DNA of 59,139 nt, taken from Candidatus Omnitrophota bacterium. GTDB lineage: Bacteria > Omnitrophota > Gorgyraeia > Aquiviventales > Aquiviventaceae. Under the pieces are notes generated by a model that saw only the letters and a list, made by a program, of their open reading frames with translations, was not told the DNA's origin and did not search any database. The stretch is from contig JACQWM010000043.1 in assembly GCA_016209275.1 (NCBI GenBank), positions 1-59,139 on the forward strand, given 5' to 3'. The stretch's first letter is position 1, and every line of letters begins with the position of its first letter. This document shows positions 462-59,139 of this stretch, piece by piece. The position numbers were made by a program, and so were the translations under genes.

Positions 462-890
462 ATGAAGATCATCGTGTTCAACGCGCAACAAAAATTTCCG
501 GTCAATTCGCGCGCTATGATCAGACTCCTCCGATGTGCGATCCGTATGTTGAAGATCGTAACGCCGGGGGTGCTCGAGGTGACGTTCCTCAGCCCGCAGC
601 GGATGCGCGCGGTGAACCGAAAAGCGCTGCACCACGACTGCGTGACCGACGTGATCAGTTTTCGGTATCAGGATGAGCCGGTGGCCGGAGAAATCTTCGT
701 CGCCCCTTCCGAGGCGCATCGGTATGCCAAGGAGCACGGCATTCCGTATGAGCAGGAACTCGCGCGGTATGTGCTCCATGGCTTGCTGCATTGGCTTGGA
801 CATGATGACCGCACGCCCGCTCAACAGCGAACGATGCGAATGATGGAAGACCGATTGCTCACCCGGTGCGATGGGAATTCACACGGCTGA
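462..890 (+). CDS. ybeY: Endoribonuclease YbeY (rRNA maturation factor)
   Basis: A 142-residue protein of normal YbeY length. YbeY is a metal-dependent single-strand endoribonuclease used in 16S rRNA 3' maturation and 70S ribosome quality control. The family region with DVISFRY (63-69) precedes the metal site HGLLHWLGHDD (106-116). In the canonical pattern HGxLHLxGYDH the ligands are three histidines. Here H106 and H110 are kept, but the third position is D116, with an extra histidine at 114. Asp can also bind zinc, so this may be a tolerated substitution. It lies downstream of phoH as in many bacteria, and its last 20 bases overlap recO. ATG 462 is preceded by only weak Shine-Dalgarno sequence (GAGC). 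Confidence 0.93.
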   Translation: MKIIVFNAQQKFPVNSRAMIRLLRCAIRMLKIVTPGVLEVTFLSPQRMRAVNRKALHHDCVTDVISFRYQDEPVAGEIFVAPSEAHRYAKEHGIPYEQELARYVLHGLLHWLGHDDRTPAQQRTMRMMEDRLLTRCDGNSHG

Positions 891-1596
891 CGCCATTGTC
901 CTTCGGCGCTATCCGTTCCGAGAGACGAGTGTCACTTTAAGTTGCTTGACGGATCAATTCGGCAAACTCAAAGGGCTCGTCAAAGGGCTGCGCGCGCAGC
1001 CGAATCGGTATCGTAGCGCAATGGAGCCGATGACGATTAACCGCATCGTCTTCTATGACACGCGCACGAGCCAGCTCCACTTGATCAGCCAGTGCGAGCT
1101 GCTTTCACCACTCACAGAGCTGCAGCGCGATTTGGACACGACGCGGTTAGCCGCACTCTTTCTGGAGCTCGCAGATACGGTGACACCGCTTGAGCATCCA
1201 GAGCCGGCTCTATATTCCTTGCTGAAACATTCGCTGGAGCATTTGGCCCTCGGGGTGGGACAGCCGGAGGGCCTCCGTCTTCATTTTATCGTGCGGCTCT
1301 TGAAGCTGGCCGGGTTTCATCCGCAATTGACCGAGTGCGCGAGCTGCCAGACGTCGGTCTCCTCCGGAGGGTTTTGGAGCGCTCGGGAAGGCGGCTTCCT
1401 ATGTCCCCGGTGCTTGTATCATGATCCGCGGGCCGAGGCAGTGACGCCAGAACTCTTGGGCGTGCTGACGACATTGTCCGAGGCTGATCAGCCCCCACTG
1501 CTGGATCCACTGTTGATGCCAGCACTCAACACCCGCATCGACGACTTCCTCCGCTGGCGCCTCGACCGACCGTTGAAAACATTGGTGTCACCATGA
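871..1596 (+). CDS. recO: DNA repair protein RecO
   Basis: A 241-residue RecO. The protein acts in the RecF(O)R pathway, annealing strands and helping load RecA onto SSB-coated gaps. The N-terminal OB-fold starts with TADAIVLRRYPFRETS, followed by the FGKLKGLVKGLRA signature (residues 30-42). The C-terminal helical domain carries a zinc site with two CxxC pairs (C156/C159 and C178/C181), as in Deinococcus-type RecO. Start ATG 871 overlaps ybeY by 20 bases, suggesting coupled translation. A long structured intergenic element follows the stop. Confidence 0.93.
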   Translation: MGIHTADAIVLRRYPFRETSVTLSCLTDQFGKLKGLVKGLRAQPNRYRSAMEPMTINRIVFYDTRTSQLHLISQCELLSPLTELQRDLDTTRLAALFLELADTVTPLEHPEPALYSLLKHSLEHLALGVGQPEGLRLHFIVRLLKLAGFHPQLTECASCQTSVSSGGFWSAREGGFLCPRCLYHDPRAEAVTPELLGVLTTLSEADQPPLLDPLLMPALNTRIDDFLRWRLDRPLKTLVSP

Positions 1597-1614
1597 AATT
1601 TCTGGAAGTTCATC

Positions 1615-1788
1615 GGGCCCCCGCCAGCCCGGCGAGCGGATGTGCGAGCTCAGCGAGCCGGCAGCGAATGCTGTCAAGCTGCGGCCACCTGTTCGATCGC
1701 GCCCCAGCCGGGCGCGGAGTTGGTGGCCGCTTCGCTGCAAGGCGAGCGCCCGGAGCGAGCACTGAGCGAGCGGGCTGGGTGGGGGCCC
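1615..1788. repeat. GC-rich multi-stem palindromic element between recO and glyQ
   Basis: The gap 1597-1801 contains no convincing gene; it is filled by nested inverted repeats. An outer stem pairs 1615-1631 with 1771-1788 (GGGCCCCC against GGGGGCCC at the ends). An inner long hairpin at 1681-1730 has two perfect stems, GCGGCCACC/GGTGGCCGC and CGCGCCC/GGGCGCG, around a five-base loop. A further pairing joins GCTCAG near 1648 to CTGAGC near 1762. Bases 1754-1778 recur exactly, inverted, at 56260-56284. It could be a mobile palindromic repeat (REP/BIME-like) or a structured RNA ahead of glyQ. Which of these it is cannot be told from one copy. Confidence 0.7.
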
Positions 1789-1801
1789 GAGGTTAGGCGA
1801 A

Positions 1802-2662
1802 ATGCAGCTACAACAGTTGATTCGGACGTTGGATACGTTTTGGGAGCAGCGCGGATGCGTGATCGTGCAGCCATATGACATGGAGATGGGGGCAGGGACG
1901 TTTCATCCGGCGACGTTCTTCGGGGCACTCGGGCCTCAGCCGTGGCGCGCGGCGTATGTGCAGCCCTCACGGCGTCCTACCGACGGACGCTATGGGGAGA
2001 ATCCGCTGCGCATGCAGCGCTACTACCAGTATCAGGTGATCCTCAAGCCGACACCGGATAACGTGCAGCAGCTGTATCTTGAGAGCCTTCGCCGCTGCGG
2101 GATCAAGCTGGAAGATCATGATGTGCGCTTTGTCCAAGATGACTGGGAATCGCCGACGCTGGGTGCGTGGGGCTTAGGCTGGGAAGTCTGGATGGATAGC
2201 TTAGAAGTCACGCAGTTTACCTACTTCCAACAAATCGGCGGTTTGGATCTGGATCACATCTCCTGCGAGATCACGTATGGGCTGGAGCGCATCGCGATGT
2301 ATGCGCAAAAGACGGCGGATGTGTATCAGCTCGCCTACGGCCCGGGCAAAAGTTACGGCGAGTTGCATCTTGCGTTAGAAAAAGAACACTCCGACTACAA
2401 CTTCAATCACGCCGATATCGAGCTGCACCGGTTGTGGTTTGATAGCTACGAGAAAGATGCGAAGCGGCTCCTCGCGGAGAAGCTCGTGCTGCCGGCGTAC
2501 GAGCAGTTGCTGCACTGCAGCCATACGTTCAACATGCTCGATGCCCGCGGGGCCATCAGCCAGTCCGACCGTCCTCGTTTCGTGCTTCGCATCCGAACCT
2601 TAGCCAAGCGCTGTGCAGAACTCTATTTGGAACGTCAAAATGCCAAAATTGAAGCACGCTAA
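1802..2662 (+). CDS. glyQ: Glycyl-tRNA synthetase alpha subunit
   Basis: A 286-residue class II synthetase catalytic subunit of the bacterial alpha2beta2 GlyRS. It forms glycyl-adenylate and charges tRNA-Gly together with GlyS. Family-defining stretches include [17 protein letters not shown] near residue 23, [16 protein letters not shown] and [16 protein letters not shown]. Length matches the family (about 290). GAGG lies about 10 bases before ATG 1802. glyS follows directly, and the 3' end of glyQ touches a repeat arm that runs into glyS. Having the two-subunit enzyme rather than the single-chain archaeal/eukaryotic type fits a PVC or proteobacteria-like lineage. Confidence 0.97.
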
Positions 2663-4799: not shown

Positions 4800-7505
4800 A
4801 TGAAACGACGCACGGCCACGCTCGCCAAACCCGCCAGCGCGTCAGCGCGCACCGGCCGCAATGGCGCTCAGAAACAGACGTCCATCTATCGCTTTGGCGG
4901 CGGCCGGGCTGATGGCAGCGCCGAGATGAAGAAGCTGCTCGGCGGCAAGGGGGCGAACCTGGCCGAAATGACGAACCTCGGCGTGCCGGTGCCGCCGGGA
5001 TTCACCATCACCACCGACGTCTGCCGCCAATTTTACGAGTTGGGCGGACGGTGGCCGAAGGGGCTGGAGCACGAGTTAGCGCAGAGACTGAAATGGCTGG
5101 AAGGCGTGACGAAGAAAGGGTTTGGCGACCCCAAGAATCCGCTGCTGGTTTCCGTGCGGTCAGGGGCGGCGGTGTCCATGCCTGGGATGATGGACACGAT
5201 TCTCAACCTGGGGTTGAACACGCAGACCGTCCATGGCCTCGTGGTGAAAACCGAGAATCCTCGGTTCGTGTTCGACGCCTACCGCCGCTTCATCCAGATG
5301 TACGGCGATGTCGTCTTAGAAGTGGAGCGCAAACAATTTGAGGAGGCACTCGGCAAGCACAAGGCGACGCATGGCGTGAAGACCGATGCCGAGCTCCCCG
5401 CCGAGGCGCTCAAAGCGCTTGTCGCCGACTACAAGCAGATCGTCAAGCGCGCCAAGGGCGCCGACTTTCCCGAAGACCCGATGGAGCAGCTGCGTGGGGC
5501 GATCAACGCCGTCTTCTCCTCCTGGAATAACGAACGCGCAAAAATCTATCGCCGGCTCAACAACATCACCGGCTTAGCTGGCACCGCCGTCACCGTTCAG
5601 TCGATGGTCTTTGGCAACATGGGCAAGACCTCGCTGACCGGGGTCTGTTTTACGCGTGATCCTAGCACGGGCGAAAACGTCTTCTACGGCGAGTATCTCG
5701 TCAATGCGCAGGGCGAAGATGTCGTCGCTGGCATTCGCACACCCAAGCCGGTCGCCGAACTGAAGAAGGAATTCCCTAAGCTCTACGACCAGCTCTTCAA
5801 GGTGGGCAAGCGCCTCGAGAAGTACTTTAAGGAAGTCCAGGACCTTGAGTTCACGGTCGAAGAAGGCGTCCTCTATATGCTGCAAGCGCGCACCGGCAAG
5901 CGCACGGCGCGAGCCGCAACCACGTTTGCCACCGATTTCGTCAACGAGGGCGTGATCTCGAAAGAAGCCGCGCTCTTGCGGATCGACCCTGCGCAGATCG
6001 ACCAGCTCTTGCATCCGACGATCGATCCGAAGGCCAAACTCAGCGTGATCGCCAAAGGGCTGCCGGCGTCTCCTGGGGCTGCGGTCGGAAAAGTGGTCTT
6101 CCATGCCCGCCGAGCGGTGGAGCTTGCCGAGGCGGGCTCGCGCGTCATCTTGGTCCGCGAAGAAACATCGCCCGAGGATATCGAAGGCATGCACGCGGCC
6201 CAAGGCATCCTCACGTCACGTGGGGGAATCACAAGCCATGCAGCCGTTGTTGGACGAGGGATGGGGAAATGCTGTGTCGTAGGTTGTAGTGAGATTACCG
6301 TACATGAGGAGGAAAGTCGCTTTACCGTGGGTGATGTTGTCGTCAAGGAGCTTGACTGGATTACGCTTAACGGGACGACCGGCGAGGTCATGCTGGGCGA
6401 AGCCCCGCTGGTGGAGCCGCAGCTCACGGGCAGTTTCAAGCAGATCCTGGACTGGGCCGATGGGATCCGCCGTCTGAAGATTCGGGCCAACGCGGATACG
6501 CCGCACGATGCCACCGTGGCGCGCGATTTCGGCGCGGAGGGCATCGGATTGTGCCGCACCGAGCACATGTTCTTTGCCGAGGATCGGCTGCCGGCGGTGC
6601 GCGAAATGATCCTGGCCAAAAATGTGGCCGCGCGCAAGAAGGCGCTCGCCAAGCTGCTGCCGTTTCAGCGGGACGATTTCAAAGGCATCTTTGAGGCGAT
6701 GCGAGGGCTGCCCGTGACGATTCGCCTGCTTGATCCGCCGCTGCATGAGTTTCTGCCGGCGACCCCGGAGGATCAGGAGCGCGTGGCCAAGCAGCTGGGC
6801 ATTCCTGTCCGGCAGTTGGCGGACACCGTCAACACCCTACATGAAATCAATCCCATGCTCGGGCACCGCGGCTGCCGGCTCGGCCTGACCTATCCGGAGA
6901 TCAACGAAATGCAAGCGCAAGCCATCTTCGAGGCCACCTGTGAGCTGGCCCGCGACGGGATCAAGGTGATTCCTGAGGTCATGATCCCGCTCGTGGGTCA
7001 TCCGAATGAGTTTCGGGTTGCCAAGCGCACGATCGATGACGTGGCCAAGCACACGATGGAACGCTTTCAGATGACGTTCACCTACCTCGTCGGCACCATG
7101 ATTGAGGTGCCGCGCGCCGCGGTGGTGGCTGATGTCATTGCCCACGAGGCCGAATTCTTCAGCTTCGGCACCAATGACTTGACCCAGATGACCTTCGGCT
7201 TCTCGCGCGATGACATCGGCAAGTTCTTGCCGCACTATTTAAAGGAAGGGATCCTGCCGGCCGATCCATTCGTGAAACTCGATCAGGAGGGGGTCGGCGA
7301 GTTGATCAAGCTGGGCGTTCGCAAGGGCCGGGCCACGCGGAAGGATCTGAAGGTCGGCATCTGCGGCGAGCATGGTGGGGAGCCTTCCTCTATTGAGTTC
7401 TGCCACCGCCTGGGCTTCGACTATGTGTCCTGTTCGCCGTATCGCGTGCCCGTGGCCCGGCTGGCCGCCGCCCAAGCCGTGTTGAGAGAGAAACATAAAG
7501 GGTGA
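4800..7505 (+). CDS. ppdK: Pyruvate, phosphate dikinase
   Basis: A 901-residue PPDK that interconverts pyruvate, ATP and Pi with PEP, AMP and PPi in the cytosol. The N-terminal ATP-grasp domain starts at KLLGGKGANLAEM. The central swivelling domain has the phospho-histidine motif GGITSHAAVVGRGMG (H480), and the C-terminal PEP/pyruvate TIM barrel ends with GICGEHGGEP (C855). The start is ATG 4800, three bases after the glyS stop; glyS and ppdK are often adjacent in related genomes. Bases of about 6221-6372 use far more A/T-ending codons than the rest, although the protein stays conserved. The stop codon lies inside a GATTACACAGATT repeat. PPDK suggests PPi-linked glycolysis or gluconeogenesis. 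Confidence 0.97.
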   Translation: MKRRTATLAKPASASARTGRNGAQKQTSIYRFGGGRADGSAEMKKLLGGKGANLAEMTNLGVPVPPGFTITTDVCRQFYELGGRWPKGLEHELAQRLKWLEGVTKKGFGDPKNPLLVSVRSGAAVSMPGMMDTILNLGLNTQTVHGLVVKTENPRFVFDAYRRFIQMYGDVVLEVERKQFEEALGKHKATHGVKTDAELPAEALKALVADYKQIVKRAKGADFPEDPMEQLRGAINAVFSSWNNERAKIYRRLNNITGLAGTAVTVQSMVFGNMGKTSLTGVCFTRDPSTGENVFYGEYLVNAQGEDVVAGIRTPKPVAELKKEFPKLYDQLFKVGKRLEKYFKEVQDLEFTVEEGVLYMLQARTGKRTARAATTFATDFVNEGVISKEAALLRIDPAQIDQLLHPTIDPKAKLSVIAKGLPASPGAAVGKVVFHARRAVELAEAGSRVILVREETSPEDIEGMHAAQGILTSRGGITSHAAVVGRGMGKCCVVGCSEITVHEEESRFTVGDVVVKELDWITLNGTTGEVMLGEAPLVEPQLTGSFKQILDWADGIRRLKIRANADTPHDATVARDFGAEGIGLCRTEHMFFAEDRLPAVREMILAKNVAARKKALAKLLPFQRDDFKGIFEAMRGLPVTIRLLDPPLHEFLPATPEDQERVAKQLGIPVRQLADTVNTLHEINPMLGHRGCRLGLTYPEINEMQAQAIFEATCELARDGIKVIPEVMIPLVGHPNEFRVAKRTIDDVAKHTMERFQMTFTYLVGTMIEVPRAAVVADVIAHEAEFFSFGTNDLTQMTFGFSRDDIGKFLPHYLKEGILPADPFVKLDQEGVGELIKLGVRKGRATRKDLKVGICGEHGGEPSSIEFCHRLGFDYVSCSPYRVPVARLAAAQAVLREKHKG

Positions 7506-7586
7506 TTACACAGATTGCGAAATGCGATTACACAGATTATTAAGGCGTTTTAATCTGTGTAATCATCCTTGGAAATCTGTGTAATC
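7504..7586. repeat. Four GATTACACAGATT copies, two per orientation, between ppdK and rpoD
   Basis: GATTACACAGATT occurs at 7504-7516 and 7526-7538, and its reverse complement at 7552-7564 and 7574-7586. The inner pair forms a 14-bp hairpin stem with an 11-base loop. The first copy covers the ppdK stop codon and the last ends seven bases before the rpoD start. Related but degraded copies lie at the nadC/radC border (about 55306-55335). Confidence 0.9.
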
Positions 7587-7592
7587 ATATAT

Positions 7593-40905: not shown

Positions 40906-41440
40906 GGGCGCGAATGCCCACCCGCACGTACGTGATGGCTGAGAGCATCGTGAAGCACGCCGCAATGATGATGACGGGCAGCTTCACCGGCAGTCCGAGC
41001 AGGACGACGGGAATGACCAGCATTTGCAGGAAGGTCGCCCATTTGCCGAGCCGGCTCGGACGGACATGCCACTTGCCTTTGAAGGCGAAGAGCACCACGG
41101 AGCCGACGGTGACCAAGGCGTCACGGCTGATCACGACCAGATTAAACCAGGCGGGGATGCGCAGCGCTGCCGGCAGCTCGCGGACGACGGAACAGGAAAT
41201 CAGCGCCGCCAAGATGAGGGTTTTATCCGCGATGGGATCGAGCAACGTGCCCAATTCCGTCTGCTGATTCTGGCGTCTGGCCAAGAATCCATCGGCGGCA
41301 TCGGAGGCCATCCCCACAAGGAAAATGCCGAGGGCCAGATAGCGGAGCCACTCGCGGGTGGGATGATAGTAGACAAAACACGCGATCAGCGCTGGCACCA
41401 ACAAGACTCGAAAAATCGATATCTTATTGGCCAAGCTCAT
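40898..41440 (-). CDS. pgsA: CDP-alcohol phosphatidyltransferase, PgsA-like
   Basis: A 180-residue membrane enzyme. The class signature is complete: D47-x2-D50-G51-x2-A54-R55-x8-G64-x3-D68-x3-D72. The start LANKISIFRVLLVPALIA is typical of CDP-diacylglycerol-glycerol-3-phosphate 3-phosphatidyltransferases, so PgsA is the most likely function. A phosphatidylinositol-phosphate synthase is a weaker alternative, given ino1 in the same window. About five hydrophobic segments follow. It is separated from the upstream lipoprotein gene by a perfect palindrome. Confidence 0.88.
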   Translation of the reverse strand: MSLANKISIFRVLLVPALIACFVYYHPTREWLRYLALGIFLVGMASDAADGFLARRQNQQTELGTLLDPIADKTLILAALISCSVVRELPAALRIPAWFNLVVISRDALVTVGSVVLFAFKGKWHVRPSRLGKWATFLQMLVIPVVLLGLPVKLPVIIIAACFTMLSAITYVRVGIRALS

Positions 41441-41451
41441 CGGAAACGATT

Positions 41452-41483
41452 GATCTCAGATATCGCGTGCGATATCTGAGATC
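41452..41483. repeat. Perfect 15-bp inverted repeat upstream of pgsA
   Basis: GATCTCAGATATCGC (41452-41466) and its exact complement (41469-41483) flank GT. It sits 12 bases before the pgsA start on the minus strand. There is no T-run. A related tandem GATATCA pair lies at 53426-53439, covering the stop of the THEP1-like gene. Confidence 0.85.
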
Positions 41484-41504
41484 GCTCGGAATACGGAGAC
41501 GTCC

Positions 41505-41930: not shown

Positions 41931-42536
41931 GATCCGCCAGCGGGGGAGCGGCCAGAAGATGCACATCGCTCTGCCGATCACGAGCTTGCGAGGGACGAAA
42001 CCCCAGAACCGGCTATCGAGCGAGGCGGAGGAGTTATCGCCCAGCACAAAGTAGCAATCCTGCGGGACGGTGATGAGGGCATGCTCCGCCCCGTAGGGGC
42101 CGCGATTATAGTAGTAGTTCTTGTGGAAGATGCCGGCGCCATCCAGCGGCTGGCCGTTGACCAGCACTTTGCCGTCGCGGATTTCCACCGTCTCCCCGCC
42201 CGTCGCGACCAGGCGCTTGATGAAGGACCGTTTTCGCTCCTCCGGAAAGCGGAAGACGATGATGTCGCCGTGCTGCGGCGGCTGAAACCGATAGATGAAT
42301 TTGTTCACTAGGATGCGGTCACCCTCAATCAGCGTCAGGCGCATCGAGCCGGACGGGATTTTAAACGGCGCCATAATGAACGTGCGGATGATGAGGGCGA
42401 GGGCCACCGCCCACAGCAACGACTCGATATTTTCCCGAAGTGCAGACTTCGAAGGGCTGGACGCAGATTCCCGCGGGTTGCTGCGCGGATTGCCGCGGAT
42501 AAATCTGCGGACATCTGCGAAGAAATCAGCGGACAT
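41922..42536 (-). CDS. lepB: Signal peptidase I
   Basis: A 204-residue type I signal peptidase that removes signal peptides on the periplasmic face of the inner membrane. One membrane helix (SLLWAVALALIIRTFIMAPF) precedes the catalytic serine S64 in PSGSM. The general base is K107 in RSFIKRLVATGGE. Boxes GDNSSASLDSRFWG are also present. GGAGG lies 6 bases before ATG 42536. The first 25 codons read through a repeat of CGCAGAT/CCGCGGAT words, so the N-terminal residues MSADFFADVRRFIRGNPRSN are probably repeat-derived and unconserved. Confidence 0.94.
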   Translation of the reverse strand: MSADFFADVRRFIRGNPRSNPRESASSPSKSALRENIESLLWAVALALIIRTFIMAPFKIPSGSMRLTLIEGDRILVNKFIYRFQPPQHGDIIVFRFPEERKRSFIKRLVATGGETVEIRDGKVLVNGQPLDGAGIFHKNYYYNRGPYGAEHALITVPQDCYFVLGDNSSASLDSRFWGFVPRKLVIGRAMCIFWPLPRWRILH

Positions 42537-42546
42537 CTGCGTCCTC
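42461..42546. repeat. CCGCAGATG/GCGGATT word repeat covering the lepB start
   Basis: Repeated units ACGCAGATT, GCGCGGATT, CCGCGGATA, TCTGCGGAC and ATCTGCG run across the first codons of lepB up to the ribosome site. ATCTGCGGAC-type words occur in both orientations. Confidence 0.75.
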
Positions 42547-42548
42547 CA

Positions 42549-55306: not shown

Positions 55307-55335
55307 TAATCTGTGTCATCATCTTTTCATAATCG
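55307..55335. repeat. Degraded GATTACACAGATT repeat at the nadC/radC border
   Basis: TAATCTGTGTCATCATC and TAATCGGTGTAATCCC are close to AATCTGTGTAATC as found between ppdK and rpoD. The last codons of nadC (GITPIMKR) are read from it. Confidence 0.65.
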
Positions 55336-56227
55336 GTGTAATCCCACAATAAACGACTTGCAATGAGAGGTCAAGTGATGGTGCGGAGTGGGTGAGGCGG
55401 CCGATGGAGATGCGATCCACACCGGTTGCGGCGATGGCGCGGACATTCTGCAGCGTCACACCGCCCGACACTTCAAGTGCGACCCATGACCCATGACCCA
55501 TGACACACGACGTATTTCGTCGAAGAACCGCAAGGCGAATATGGCTGTTTGACCAATTATCAAGGAGGATGATATCGGGACGCGTTGCGAACGCCGAATC
55601 AAATTCCCTCAAATCCACGACTTCAATTTCAATGGGCTGATGTGGGTAACGTTTTTTGACGTTTTGGACAAGCGACTGAAGGTCATGTGTCTTGTGTCGT
55701 GTGTCGTGTGTCGCCGTTCTGAGATGATTCGTTTTGATGAGCAGTGCGTCTGCTAACGACGCGCGATGACTCTGCCCTCCCCCCGCGCGCACGGCATGCT
55801 TCTCCAGCGCTCGCAGGCCGGGCAGCGTCTTGCGGGTGTCGAGGATCTTGGCTTGGGTGCCGTTCACGCGGTCGACAAAGGCGCGCGTGAGCGTGGCGAT
55901 GCCGGACAGATGCCCAAGGACATTGAGCGCGGTGCGCTCGGCCGCAAAGATCGATCGGGCCTTGCCCTCGACGGTCAGAATCGTCTGCCCCTTGGCGAGT
56001 CGAGCCCCTTCCTTGGCCTGGAGGCGGCAGCGCAGTGTCGGGTCAGCCGCCTGGAAGGTCCAGACGGCGATCGGTCCGCCCGCCAGGATGCCGGAGGCTT
56101 TCGCGATGATGCGCGCCCGGATGCGCCGCGAGGCGGGAATCGTAGCACGGGAGGTGATGTCGTGAGCCGCCGCATCTTCCCGCAGCGCAGCTCGAATGAG
56201 TGGAAGGACATCTGATCTCGCTATCAT
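55319..56227 (-). CDS. nadC: Nicotinate-nucleotide pyrophosphorylase (carboxylating)
   Basis: A 302-residue quinolinate phosphoribosyltransferase for NAD synthesis; the family norm is about 280. Substrate-binding residues are in TALNVLGHLSGIAT, DTRKTLPGLRALEKHAV, and RAGGGQSHRASLADALLIKTNH. The C-terminal barrel has IEIEVVDLREFD, PDIILLDN, LEVSGGVTLQNV and TGVDRISIGRLTHS. The extra length comes from two in-frame repeat insertions (THDTRHKTHDL after NHLRTA, and SCVMGHGSW before VALEVSGG) plus a repeat-derived C-terminus. Both insertions fall in surface loops between conserved motifs, so the enzyme is probably active. No nadA or nadB is in the window. Confidence 0.93.
   Translation of the reverse strand: MIARSDVLPLIRAALREDAAAHDITSRATIPASRRIRARIIAKASGILAGGPIAVWTFQAADPTLRCRLQAKEGARLAKGQTILTVEGKARSIFAAERTALNVLGHLSGIATLTRAFVDRVNGTQAKILDTRKTLPGLRALEKHAVRAGGGQSHRASLADALLIKTNHLRTATHDTRHKTHDLQSLVQNVKKRYPHQPIEIEVVDLREFDSAFATRPDIILLDNWSNSHIRLAVLRRNTSCVMGHGSWVALEVSGGVTLQNVRAIAATGVDRISIGRLTHSAPSLDLSLQVVYCGITPIMKR
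55481..55511. repeat. In-frame GACCCAT tandem repeat inside nadC
   Basis: GACCCAT repeated about four times, ending in GACACACGAC. It is read by nadC as CVMGHGSW. It is the inverted relative of the repeat at 55682-55713. Confidence 0.8.
55682..55713. repeat. In-frame GTCGTGT tandem repeat inside nadC
   Basis: GTCATGT, GTCTTGT, GTCGTGT, GTCGTGT in tandem, read by nadC as THDTRHKTHD. It shares the word GTCATGTGTC with the complement of the repeat at 55481-55511. Confidence 0.8.
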
Positions 56228-56247
56228 ATGAAAAGTATCTCTGTTAC

Positions 56248-56309
56248 ACGTACCCCCGGCCAGCCCGCTCGCTCAGTGCTCGCTGGGCTGGCCAGGGGCC
56301 ACTGTACGT
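56248..56309. repeat. Long GC-rich hairpin between valS and nadC
   Basis: Stems ACGTAC/GTACGT (56248-56253, 56304-56309), CCCC/GGGG and GGCCAGCCC/GGGCTGGCC (56258-56266, 56285-56293) close on an 18-base loop. Bases 56260-56284 are identical (inverted) to 1754-1778 in the recO-glyQ element. ATTTTTG follows on the plus strand. It could stop transcription from either side or be a palindromic mobile repeat. Confidence 0.85.
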
Positions 56310-56322
56310 ATTTTTGAGCATC

Positions 56323-59139
56323 TCACATGGATTGGACAAGCGAGAGCAACTCCGCTAACTTCTTCCGGGTTTCTTCGGCTTGCGTCAACTTACTTTTGGT
56401 TTGCTCCACCACCTCGGCTGGCGCTTTCGAGACGAACTGCGCATCCTTCAGGCGATTACCGGTGTGGGAGATATAGCGCGACAGCTCATCAATTTTCTGT
56501 TGCAGTCGTGCTTGTTCCTTCTGCGGATCAATCAGCCCGGCGAGGGGGATGAGCACTTCGATGCCGTCAACGACCGTTGCGGCGGCATGCGAGATGCTTG
56601 TGCGGTCGGCGGCCACATGGACCTCGCCGGTGGCCGCGAGCATTTTCAACAGCGCGTCGTGCGACGCAAAAAAGCTCCGCACCGAGGCGTGATGGCTGAC
56701 CAGGTGCACCGCCGGCCGGCTCTCCGGCGGCAGATTCAGTTCAGCCTTCGTGTTGCGAATCGCCACCGTCACGGCCTGAAACCGTTCAAAGAGTTTCTCC
56801 GCCTCAGCATCCATCAGTTTCTTTGTCGCCGTGGGCCACGCCGCCTTCATGATGCTATGTGCTGTGTGCTGTGTGCTGTGTGCCGGCATGAGATGCTGCC
56901 ACAGCTCCTCCGTGACAAACGGCATCACGGGATGCAACAGTCGCAAACTGGTTTCCAACACGTGGACGAGGATATCTGCGGTCTGTTGTGTATTGTCTGG
57001 CGTCTGAAGCTGGACTTTGGCGATTTCCAGATACCAGTCGCAGACGTCGTGCCAGAGAAAGTCATACAGCGCGTTGGCGGCGTCACTGAACACATGCGTA
57101 TTCAGCGAGCCGGTGACCCGCTGGATGGTGCGCTGCAGTCGCGAGAGGATCCACCGGTTCGGCACCGTCAAATGTCGAATGTCGAATTGCGAATGTCGAA
57201 TTGGCTGATCATTCGTCATTCGGCATTCGTCATTCGACAATACAAAACGGGTGGCGTTCCACAGCTTATTCGCAAAATTCCGCCCGGCCACGAACCGCTC
57301 TTCCGAGAGAAACACATCCTGCCCGATCGCCGTCGCCGTGACGAGCGTGTAGCGCAGCGCATCGGTCCCGTAGGTTTTGATGATATCGATGGGATCGATG
57401 ATGTTGCCCAGCGACTTCGACATCTTCTTGCCGGTGATGTCGCGCACCGTGCCATGGATGTACACGGTGGTAAACGGCGGGGCCTTCATGCAAAAGTAGC
57501 CGGCCATGATCATGCGCGCCACCCAGAAGAAAATGATTTCCTGGGCCGTCACCAGGGTATTGGTGGGATAGAAATAGTCCAGGTCCTTGGTCTTCTGCGG
57601 CCAGCCCAGCGTTGAGAACGGCCAGAGCCACGATGAAAACCACGTATCGAGCACGTCCTCATCTTGTCGAAATCCAATGATTGATCCACACTCGGGACAT
57701 TTCGTAGGAGGAGTTTTGCTGACAATGATGCCAGGCTGTCCATGTTTTGCCTCAGAAGCTTTGTGAGGTCCAATAACGTCAGTGCCTTCTAGATTTTTTG
57801 TTTTACTCAGACACGCGTCGCAATACCAGACGGGAATGCGGTGTCCCCACCAAATCTGCCGGCTGATGCACCAATCCTGGATGTTCTCCATCCAGTTCAG
57901 GTAGACCTTGGTCCAGCGCTTCGGCGCAAAGGTGATCGTGCCATCCTTCACGGCCTTGATGGCGGGCACTGCCAGCGGCTTCATCTTGACGAACCACTGG
58001 GGCGAGAGGCGCGGCTCGATAGCCGTATGGCAGCGGTAGCAATGGCCGACATTGTGCGGATGCTCATCGATCGCCCCAAGAAAACCTTGTTGCTCCAGGT
58101 CCACGATGAGTTTGCTGCGGCAGTCATACCGGTCCAGGCCGTCATAGGCAGCGGGCACATGGGTCATGTGCGCGTCATCGGTCATCACGTTGATGAATTC
58201 GAGCTTATGCTTCTTGCCCAGTTGAAAGTCCACCGGATCATGCGCCGGGGTGACCTTCACCGCCCCGGTGCCGAACTCACGGTCCACGGCTTCATCCGAG
58301 ATGATGGGTAGCTTGCGGTTCACGAGCGGGAGAATGGCGTGCTGGCCGATCAGCCTTTTGTACCGCTTATCCTTAGGATGCACGGCAATGGCGGTATCGC
58401 CGAGCATGGTTTCAGGACGGGTGGTGGCGACCTCAATAAACTGCGCTGAAGGCTGAAGGTTGAAGGTTGAAGGGTGGCTTTTGCCTTGAGCCTTGCCCGC
58501 CCCGGCATGGGTCGGGCCGGGGAGCCTTGAGCCTTGAGCCAAGGGATAGCGGATGTGGTACAGCTTGCCTTGGGTCTGCTGTCGAGGCGCCTCTTCATCC
58601 GCCAGGGCGGTCTGGCAGCGCGGGCACCAGTTGATGATGTACTGGCCGCGATAGATCAGCCCTTTCTTGTAGAGCTGGATGAAGACCTCGAGGACTGCGT
58701 CGGAGAGCCCCTCATCCATCGTAAACCGCGTGCGGCGCCAATCGCACGAGGAGCCCAGCCGACGCAATTGATACAGGATCGTATTGCCGTATTGCTCCTT
58801 CCACTGCCAGACGCGCTTCACGAATTCCTCGCGGCCCAGGTCTTGCCGCGTCTTCCCTTCCTTCGCCAGGGCTCGCTCCACGACGTTTTGCGTGGCAATG
58901 CCGGCATGATCCGTGCCCGGCACCCACAGCGCGTTGAGGCCTTTCATACGCTGATAGCGGATGAGGATGTCCTGGATGGTGTTGTTGAGCGCATGGCCCA
59001 TGTGGAGGATGCCGGTCACGTTCGGGGGCGGGATGACGATCGTGTAGGGGCGGCGGCCGCGACCGGGGCGCGCGGCGAGGAAGCCGCCCTCCTCCCAGGA
59101 GCGGTAGCGCCGGGCCTCGACGCGGGAGGCGTCGTAGCG
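56323..59139 (-). CDS. valS: Valyl-tRNA synthetase (5' end cut by window)
   Basis: About 938 residues of a class I synthetase are in the window, and the frame is open to the last base, so only the first few residues are missing. The HIGH motif reads ILHMGHAL, the editing domain has TTRPETMLGDTAIAV, KMSKS is in ITGKKMSKSLGNII, a zinc-type CDAC/CPECG pair is present, and a C-terminal coiled-coil arm ends the protein. Three repeat-derived in-frame insertions occur (at 56856-56884, 57171-57238 and 58445-58543). The last 120 bases toward the window edge are extremely GC-rich, unlike the rest. A patch near 57660-57822 is A/T-richer. Confidence 0.95.
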   Translation of the reverse strand, partial: RYDASRVEARRYRSWEEGGFLAARPGRGRRPYTIVIPPPNVTGILHMGHALNNTIQDILIRYQRMKGLNALWVPGTDHAGIATQNVVERALAKEGKTRQDLGREEFVKRVWQWKEQYGNTILYQLRRLGSSCDWRRTRFTMDEGLSDAVLEVFIQLYKKGLIYRGQYIINWCPRCQTALADEEAPRQQTQGKLYHIRYPLAQGSRLPGPTHAGAGKAQGKSHPSTFNLQPSAQFIEVATTRPETMLGDTAIAVHPKDKRYKRLIGQHAILPLVNRKLPIISDEAVDREFGTGAVKVTPAHDPVDFQLGKKHKLEFINVMTDDAHMTHVPAAYDGLDRYDCRSKLIVDLEQQGFLGAIDEHPHNVGHCYRCHTAIEPRLSPQWFVKMKPLAVPAIKAVKDGTITFAPKRWTKVYLNWMENIQDWCISRQIWWGHRIPVWYCDACLSKTKNLEGTDVIGPHKASEAKHGQPGIIVSKTPPTKCPECGSIIGFRQDEDVLDTWFSSWLWPFSTLGWPQKTKDLDYFYPTNTLVTAQEIIFFWVARMIMAGYFCMKAPPFTTVYIHGTVRDITGKKMSKSLGNIIDPIDIIKTYGTDALRYTLVTATAIGQDVFLSEERFVAGRNFANKLWNATRFVLSNDECRMTNDQPIRHSQFDIRHLTVPNRWILSRLQRTIQRVTGSLNTHVFSDAANALYDFLWHDVCDWYLEIAKVQLQTPDNTQQTADILVHVLETSLRLLHPVMPFVTEELWQHLMPAHSTQHTAHSIMKAAWPTATKKLMDAEAEKLFERFQAVTVAIRNTKAELNLPPESRPAVHLVSHHASVRSFFASHDALLKMLAATGEVHVAADRTSISHAAATVVDGIEVLIPLAGLIDPQKEQARLQQKIDELSRYISHTGNRLKDAQFVSKAPAEVVEQTKSKLTQAEETRKKLAELLSLVQSM
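56856..56884. repeat. In-frame TGTGTGC tandem repeat inside valS
   Basis: Four 7-base units (GTGCTGT) in a row, read by valS as PAHSTQHTAHS just after HLM in the anticodon-binding region. Confidence 0.8.
57171..57238. repeat. In-frame hairpin of AATGTCG words inside valS
   Basis: GTCGAAT words run to about 57203, then a GGCTGATC loop, then ATTCGTC/ATTCGGC words back to 57238. The two halves are imperfect complements. valS reads it as NDECRMTNDQ plus PIRHSQFDIRHLT, between FVLS and VPNRW. Confidence 0.85.
58445..58543. repeat. In-frame compound repeat in the valS editing domain
   Basis: GCTGAAG/GTTGAAG words (58445-58474) are followed by GCCTTGA words flanking a CCCGCCCCGGCATGGGTCGG stretch (58483-58543). 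valS reads the block as LAQGSRLPGPTHAGAG plus KAQGKSHPSTFNLQPSAQ, directly before FIEVATTRPETM. Confidence 0.85.

Follow-up and report, generated by a model that had tools for sequence, protein, structure and literature searches.

The 205-nt spacer that separates the recO stop (1596) from the glyQ start (1802) in our window, the whole 59,139-nt stretch of DNA analyzed here, probably holds a copy of a palindromic repeat, mobile but non-autonomous and about 175 bp long, which among the genomes sampled occurs only in one Omnitrophota family and which would spread by means of a single-stranded fold recognized in trans. The dispersal of the element, the empty sites in relatives, the likeness of copies within a genome, the single-strand fold, the inverted pairs and the lack of coding content all fit a non-autonomous mobile palindrome. 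In the mechanism we propose, a mobilizing enzyme acting in trans would recognize the folded strand by its nested stems and its conserved asymmetric internal loop, and most copies would come to rest in intergenic spacers such as that of recO and glyQ; occasionally one would land in frame in a tolerant loop of a conserved enzyme and would then be translated. We infer that transposition is the route, that the folded strand is the recognized form and that the host draws no benefit. The copy studied here is most likely no switch for glyQ.

The fold and the putatively selected strand

The window copy is a nested imperfect palindrome (Table 1), with more helices between the outer arms and the apical hairpin, and with perfect stems of 9 bp (1681-1689/1722-1730) and 7 bp (1698-1704/1710-1716) in the inner hairpin. 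Folding of positions 1590-1810 gives minimum free energies of -128.4 kcal/mol on the plus strand and -115.9 on the minus strand (z -4.63 and -4.65), and none of 200 dinucleotide shuffles folded equally well on either strand. The nested stems proposed in a preliminary description of this spacer, an outer long stem and a 50-base inner hairpin with two perfect stems, are thus real. Its statement that the whole intergenic space is structure goes too far, since the structured part leaves out the first 16 nt (1597-1612) and the last 11 nt (1791-1801).

Table 1. Coordinates of the element, its parts and its neighbors, and of a relic elsewhere in the window.
Feature	Position	Strand	Basis or remark
recO, upstream neighbor	871..1596	+	TIGR00613 above cut-off
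glyQ, downstream neighbor	1802..2662	+	TIGR00388 above cut-off
Dispersed palindromic element, L-subfamily copy	about 1613..1790	+	Fold, copies elsewhere, boundary analysis, subfamily tree
Outer stem, 5' arm	1613..1633	+	Pairs with 1770-1790; arm sequence varies between copies, pairing recurs (helix 1: 67% of cells paired)
Outer stem, 3' arm	1770..1790	+	Pairs with 1613-1633
Conserved core (covariance model R1)	1631..1772	+	Covariance-model match in window copy
Inner 50-nt hairpin	1681..1730	+	Fold; lower stem covaries
Internal loop, 5' side, T[AG]T[CT][CT]GA	1690..1696	+	49/51 full copies
Internal loop, 3' side, GAGTT	1717..1721	+	49/51 full copies
Internally deleted relic, outer stem only, between valS and nadC	56250..56305	-	94% match over 32 nt at 56253-56284; 56240-56310 z -5.9

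The element is dispersed. A blastn search with positions 1597-1800 recovered five strong copies (86-100% identity) in the window's own genome (G000), the window's included; contig ends truncate two of the five. A covariance model of a 144-position core, built from 21 copies, placed the element at 59 places in 10 of the 27 genomes of the family (Aquiviventaceae), with 1 to 21 places in each bearer (21 in G023, 15 in G017) and none in the other 17 genomes. In a class-wide sample of 293 genomes, searched with stricter filters, matches fell only in the same 10, and in 0/266 genomes outside the family. The nearest neighbor of a copy came from the same genome in 42 of 50 cases.

The pairing is conserved among these copies. 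When the 66 pairs of the window copy's fold were laid on 21 copies, 80.6% of cells were paired against 71.8% in shuffled controls, 33 pairs had undergone double changes, and the covariation score was 0.222 against 0.105, a value that none of 500 shuffles reached; sliding the partner by one to three columns lowered it to 0.042-0.138. The 28 model pairs were paired in 97.0% of cells across 54 aligned matches against 89.7% in shuffles (0/500), in an alignment that is itself fitted to the structure. Around the constant internal loop we counted 18 different 7-nt strands on the 5' side of the lower stem and 29 different apical sequences, and exchanging lower-stem strands between copies weakened the folding energy from -18.5 to -12.2. 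Folded alone, the apical stretch above the loop forms 5.7 pairs on average, and none in at least one copy. Because compensatory changes keep the pairing around an asymmetric internal loop found in 49 of the 51 full copies, the folded single strand appears to be under selection. Within the loop, GA facing GA suggests tandem sheared G-A pairs.

The preliminary description had reasoned that a selfish repeat would be found at unrelated loci and would show no covariation. The same element does lie at unrelated loci, but covariation is strong, so that the premise fails here: covariation and dispersal co-occur. Taken together, they make it seem that the folded single strand is selected within a mobile element. 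Of the two options offered in that description, a structured RNA or a palindromic element, the second is supported by dispersal, the empty site and the lack of an Rfam match; the selected strand may be RNA or single-stranded DNA.

Judged by z, the plus strand outfolds the minus strand in 39 of 53 copies, and judged by energy in 50 of 53, with related copies treated as independent; the plus-strand z lies above -2 in 4 of the 53, two of which are cut by contig ends. These figures point to one strand as the selected form, though RNA and single-stranded DNA predict the same marks and the copies are related. They also lend some weight to a different reading, to which we grant a small chance, namely that the element is a structured non-coding RNA or an RNA-mediated mobile element in which the RNA itself is active, and that its dispersal reflects retro-mobility or duplication. 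A conserved internal loop inside covarying stems would suit such an RNA, as would the better folding of the plus strand and the excess of G-T over A-C in well-kept pairs (13 to 4). Over all 66 pairs, however, that excess is just 55 to 37, with 21 of the 55 coming from one single column pair; the element is absent from 17/27 family genomes, its outer arms vary widely, its genic copies lie in both orientations, and recognition of single-stranded DNA would leave the same marks.

Copies inside conserved genes

Forty-eight of the 59 places are flanked on either side by 60 nt or more and could be assessed for position within genes. Five hold the element in frame with both flanks scoring as coding, and the remaining 43 are not in-frame genic. 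The five lie in miaB of three genomes (G015, G016 and G011), in mnmA of the window's own genome and in a cysteine desulfurase gene of G019, whose best model is NifS, at a score below the NifS cut-off. The search took no account of gene identity, and only these three genes were found; MiaB, MnmA and cysteine desulfurase serve tRNA thiolation or its sulfur supply. At one and the same place in miaB, G015 and G016, which may share a single insertion, carry the element antisense, and G011 carries it sense. All five copies are in frame and free of stops, leaving the host frames unbroken, yet they are not read alike: the mnmA copy and the miaB copy of G011 share a frame around the apical hairpin, that of G019 is read in a different one, and two are antisense. 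In three further copies (the minus copy of G023:C29, G022:C155 and G023:C25) the two flanks share their best frame and no stop intervenes; these were not counted, as at least one flank scores below zero.

The element does not seem to be built for coding, since few of its frames are open (2.55 of 6 per copy, against 3.27 in shuffles; 53 copies). Nor do the same 53 copies avoid stop codons, which are commoner over the six frames than in shuffles (4.72 against 3.58 per copy). By our own arithmetic, if one insertion in three leaves the gene in frame, the probability that four independent insertions are all in frame and open by chance is about 0.0004. The open frames are most simply explained by selection acting on the host gene, which would entail translation of the inserts, each adding some 60-70 residues to the protein. 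In alignments to the nearest solved homologues, the position of the insert falls where 4-8 residues are skipped (2der 143-151, 7mjv 234-243, 9wep 267-272), and the insert sites are probably surface loops. The mnmA insert occurs in the own genome only (1/23; it is lacking in all 22 relatives found), and the cysteine desulfurase place carries inserts in 4 of 19 genomes. Such filled and empty homologous proteins offer a natural series for how enzymes tolerate new segments.

The five genic copies also bear on whether the element might be an intervening sequence, removed or skipped after transcription in the manner of an intron or a translational bypass. A very stable hairpin inside conserved genes would be in keeping with this, but removal would not need all five copies to be in frame and stop-free when only 2.55 of 6 frames are open, and we regard the idea as very improbable.

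The miaB site is a landing pad for palindromes of several kinds. Among 19 MiaB sequences that cover it (a 20th, from G023, does not and was left out), 15 nt separate the anchors in 6, and 42-210 nt in 13. The 13 inserts fold at z -2.15 to -7.26, with 0 to 7 of 200 shuffles as good (6-7 for those of G008, G009 and G015). Three of these in-frame hairpins are the present element; the other 10 are absent from its 59 places and are of several kinds. Those of G008, G005 and G009 look alike by eye, and that of the own genome is a short palindrome. In G025 and G013 the inserted hairpins resemble GGGGTCAGACCCC and GGGGACAGTCCCC and are reminiscent of the GGGGWSAS motif that PMC3733652 mentions. The own genome also contains a second family of palindromes, counted at 113 GATATCNGATATC sites against 0 for a reversed-pattern control, with in-frame copies in its miaB and its cysteine desulfurase gene (e.g. 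L289, L290). Of 27 copies examined, only these two are intragenic; a further two score as sharing the frame, yet they lie where an ORF begins. Both intragenic copies were chosen since their places were already known, and both are also among the first 50 of the 113 sites listed. About 0.5 kb separates a copy of the present element in the own genome (L034, G000:C22:27381-27522) from the miaB gene downstream of it, in the loop of which a different palindrome sits.

Two genes of the window carry in-frame inserts of another kind, so that the habit is not limited to the tRNA thiolation pathway. In valS (56323-59019, minus strand) two heptamer-repeat inserts, at 58446-58541 and 57170-57239, have mutually inverted halves; the second folds at z -5.4 and the first only at z -1.7. 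In nadC (55319-56227, minus strand) two heptamer repeat stretches, at 55481-55511 and 55682-55713, are mutually inverted and about 184 nt apart, and folded together reach only z -1.1.

One may also imagine, though we think it unlikely, an RNA-level mobile entity, its conserved internal loop perhaps containing tandem G-A pairs, that is copied back into DNA or recognized as RNA, while a small set of protein loops in the host lineage (MiaB, IscS/NifS, MnmA) would be permissive sites at which palindromes of several kinds can land. If this were true, tRNA-thiolation enzymes would be repeatedly gaining new peptide segments.

Boundaries, spread and related systems

Conservation falls to background about 18 nt to the left and 15 nt to the right of the core (48 copies with 40 nt on both sides), a boundary that places the window element at about 1613-1788. 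The outer arms pair within a copy and yet differ widely among copies. Starting 13 nt out, in a stretch to which a few terminal arm bases still belong, the two flanks of one copy complement each other better than flanks taken from different copies do (longest word 5.88 against 4.56 nt). In the same 48 copies we saw no target-site duplication, as the longest word shared by a copy's own flanks measured 4.44 nt against 4.37 nt with the flanks of other copies, in a test that a duplication of 2-3 bp would escape. Neither was there a terminal tag at a fixed place. CGTC reached at most 2/48 at one fixed offset and its complement GACG 8/48, inside the stem; anywhere within 40 nt they reached at most 7/48 and 18/48. 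GTAG reached at most 4/48 at one fixed offset and 10/48 anywhere in the 5' 40 nt. The varying arms would blur either tag if it lay at a varying distance.

A tree of 50 copies divides them into two groups, L (24, the window copy among them) and R (26), with supports of 90/90. Many copies are solitary, and all nine close divergent pairs join one L to one R (L037, L043, L081, L089, L097, L101, L106, L107 and L108; in L081, L089, L097 and L101 the partner is cut by the contig start and was typed by its best BLAST match). In L039 and L041 the neighbor is a fragment that belongs to the opposite type and points the same way. Besides the relic between valS and nadC (Table 1), internally deleted derivatives that keep the outer stem occur in G023:C25 and G017:C67, as 46-48 nt spanning model positions 1-144. 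Copies also lie beside seemingly the same genes in different genera (L044/L092, L042/L086, L084/L097, L091/L100), sometimes as L in one and R in the other. Such shared sites may be hot spots or reflect inheritance or conversion, and some of the distribution may go back to gene conversion or to ancient inheritance.

Host-benefit roles in chromosomal architecture and at mRNA ends have been proposed for BIMEs, and a site of this sort, kept for the host and mobile only secondarily, would agree with the 43 of 48 assessable copies that are not in-frame genic, with the divergent L/R pairs and with some sites seemingly shared between genera. Its presence is patchy, at 1 to 21 places in each of 10/27 genomes, which speaks against such a role, and we consider it highly unlikely.

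The search for a mobilizer or parent gave no candidate. Y1 transposase genes are found in 19 of the 27 family genomes and in 6 of the 10 that bear the element. No Y1 gene was found in the other four bearers (G003, G016, G017 and G023), three of which are 66-78% complete; they include the two richest in copies, G017 (66%) and G023 (78%). At 17 Y1 places examined, of 41, blastn with a positive control detected no element copy nearby, and a hairpin scan of Y1 loci, run without a positive control, returned none. Absence from four of ten genomes, three of them incomplete, and the lack of copies at those 17 places leave a Y1 transposase unsupported as the mobilizer. Within the fetched neighborhoods of copies we found no gene traveling with the element, the ORFs that recur beside copies looking like shared housekeeping loci, and no parent transposon with constant terminal inverted repeats. 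A phage or plasmid origin was also rejected: phages gave no match, and two short plasmid matches (16-22% of the query) were read as chance. One exact 25-base pattern, which fits only part of the L subfamily, found nothing in viral contigs. The concrete folded structure provides a handle for seeking the mobilizer. One Y1 transposase gene of the own genome (L292 1216-1852, G000:C53) has GGGGACAG at one of its ends and CTGTCCCC at the opposite one, and is possibly related to the GGGGACAG-type inserts.

REP, BIME and REPIN sequences are 20-40 nt long, carry a GTAG tag and are mobilized by RAYT Y1 transposases. The Omnitrophota element resembles them as a dispersed hairpin that forms inverted pairs, and differs in its length of about 175 nt, in having no GTAG or CGTC at a fixed place, and in that no Y1 was found in its two richest genomes. 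REP hairpins are dispersed, often as dimers, with intragenic cases and a shared recB site (PMC3733652). ERIC, NEMIS/Correia and YPAL are non-autonomous elements of about 100-200 bp that give long stem-loop transcripts, and in-frame fusion to genes occurs in some of them (PMC2229807). Our element is like these bacterial MITEs in length, in being non-autonomous and in having some copies in frame in genes; unlike them, it has no target-site duplication signal, no constant arms and no parent transposase that we could find.

In behavior, the closest analogy appears to be with the Rickettsia palindromic elements (RPEs), of 105-146 or about 150 bp, which are scattered over spacers and also occur in frame within conserved genes (PMC2229807, PMC10969869). 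Both are palindromes of about 100-180 bp at many places that occur in frame inside conserved genes, and for the Omnitrophota element there are homologues that lack the insert. RPEs contain an open reading frame that encodes a conserved peptide (PMC10969869), and a CGTC tag at one end is taken as an RPE-type criterion (PMC3733652). The Omnitrophota element, from another phylum, has instead a nested fold with a conserved internal loop, divergent L/R pairs, no conserved peptide, several frames on either strand, and no CGTC at a fixed place. Protein-coding palindromes are also indicated for Wolbachia by the title of a reference in PMC2229807 and PMC10969869. A process comparable to that of the Rickettsia and Wolbachia palindromes thus appears in uncultured Omnitrophota. 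Our literature search, of partial coverage, found no earlier report of such palindromes for Omnitrophota, which is weak evidence of novelty.

The recO-glyQ site in relatives

Of 27 glyQ loci returned, 25 were examined (L135 and L136, fragments, were left out), 24 of them from relatives; 22 of the 24 are informative for the recO-glyQ spacer, those of G012 and G010 being cut by contig ends. The distance from recO stop to glyQ start is at most 22 nt in 13 of the 22, with some genes overlapping, and 71-240 nt in 8; in G002 it is 1,269 nt, with a weak recO match. The element is absent from this spacer in all 22, as none is among its 59 places, and blastn of 50 core copies against the relatives' loci gave only pieces of 22-30 nt, outside the spacers. 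Among the 8 longer spacers, folding is stronger than in shuffles in five (z -2.6 to -8.2) and not clearly so in the other three (G015 +1.55, G020 +0.2, G021 -1.75). With spacers nearly closed or lacking the element in relatives, the 205 nt represent an insertion, at a place that received other inserts too.

An Rfam scan of the window's recO-glyQ spacer returned nothing at curated thresholds; below threshold it gave two far matches, to eukaryotic families (E 0.43 and 6.1), neither above chance. The doubt already voiced in the preliminary description about a T-box or a glycine riboswitch is thereby upheld, whereas the regulatory link that it hinted at to the synthetase operon finds no support, the element being dispersed at many loci and missing between recO and glyQ in every informative relative. 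A cis-regulatory RNA of the glyQS operon (a leader, riboswitch or T-box-like element) is hardly credible: the element does lie directly upstream of glyQ with a conserved fold, but this is one of 59 places, and the Rfam negatives and the near-closed spacer of relatives speak strongly against a glyQS leader or T-box. T-box leaders and glycine riboswitches are alike in their position upstream of a glycyl-tRNA synthetase gene, and unlike in the lack of an Rfam match and in the dispersal. Conserved folds upstream of operons, then, need not be regulatory RNAs.

Other structured or repeated sequences occur in the window. The glyQ-glyS junction (2655-2740) holds a hairpin of a different kind, in which heptamer-like repeats are inverted (z -4.4); three more strong hairpins, again differing in sequence, lie at 7498-7590 (z -8.9), 41440-41495 (z -5.3) and 42455-42548 (z -7.1); and a AGTGATTA tandem repeat occupies 401-438, directly downstream of an ORF that ends at 401.
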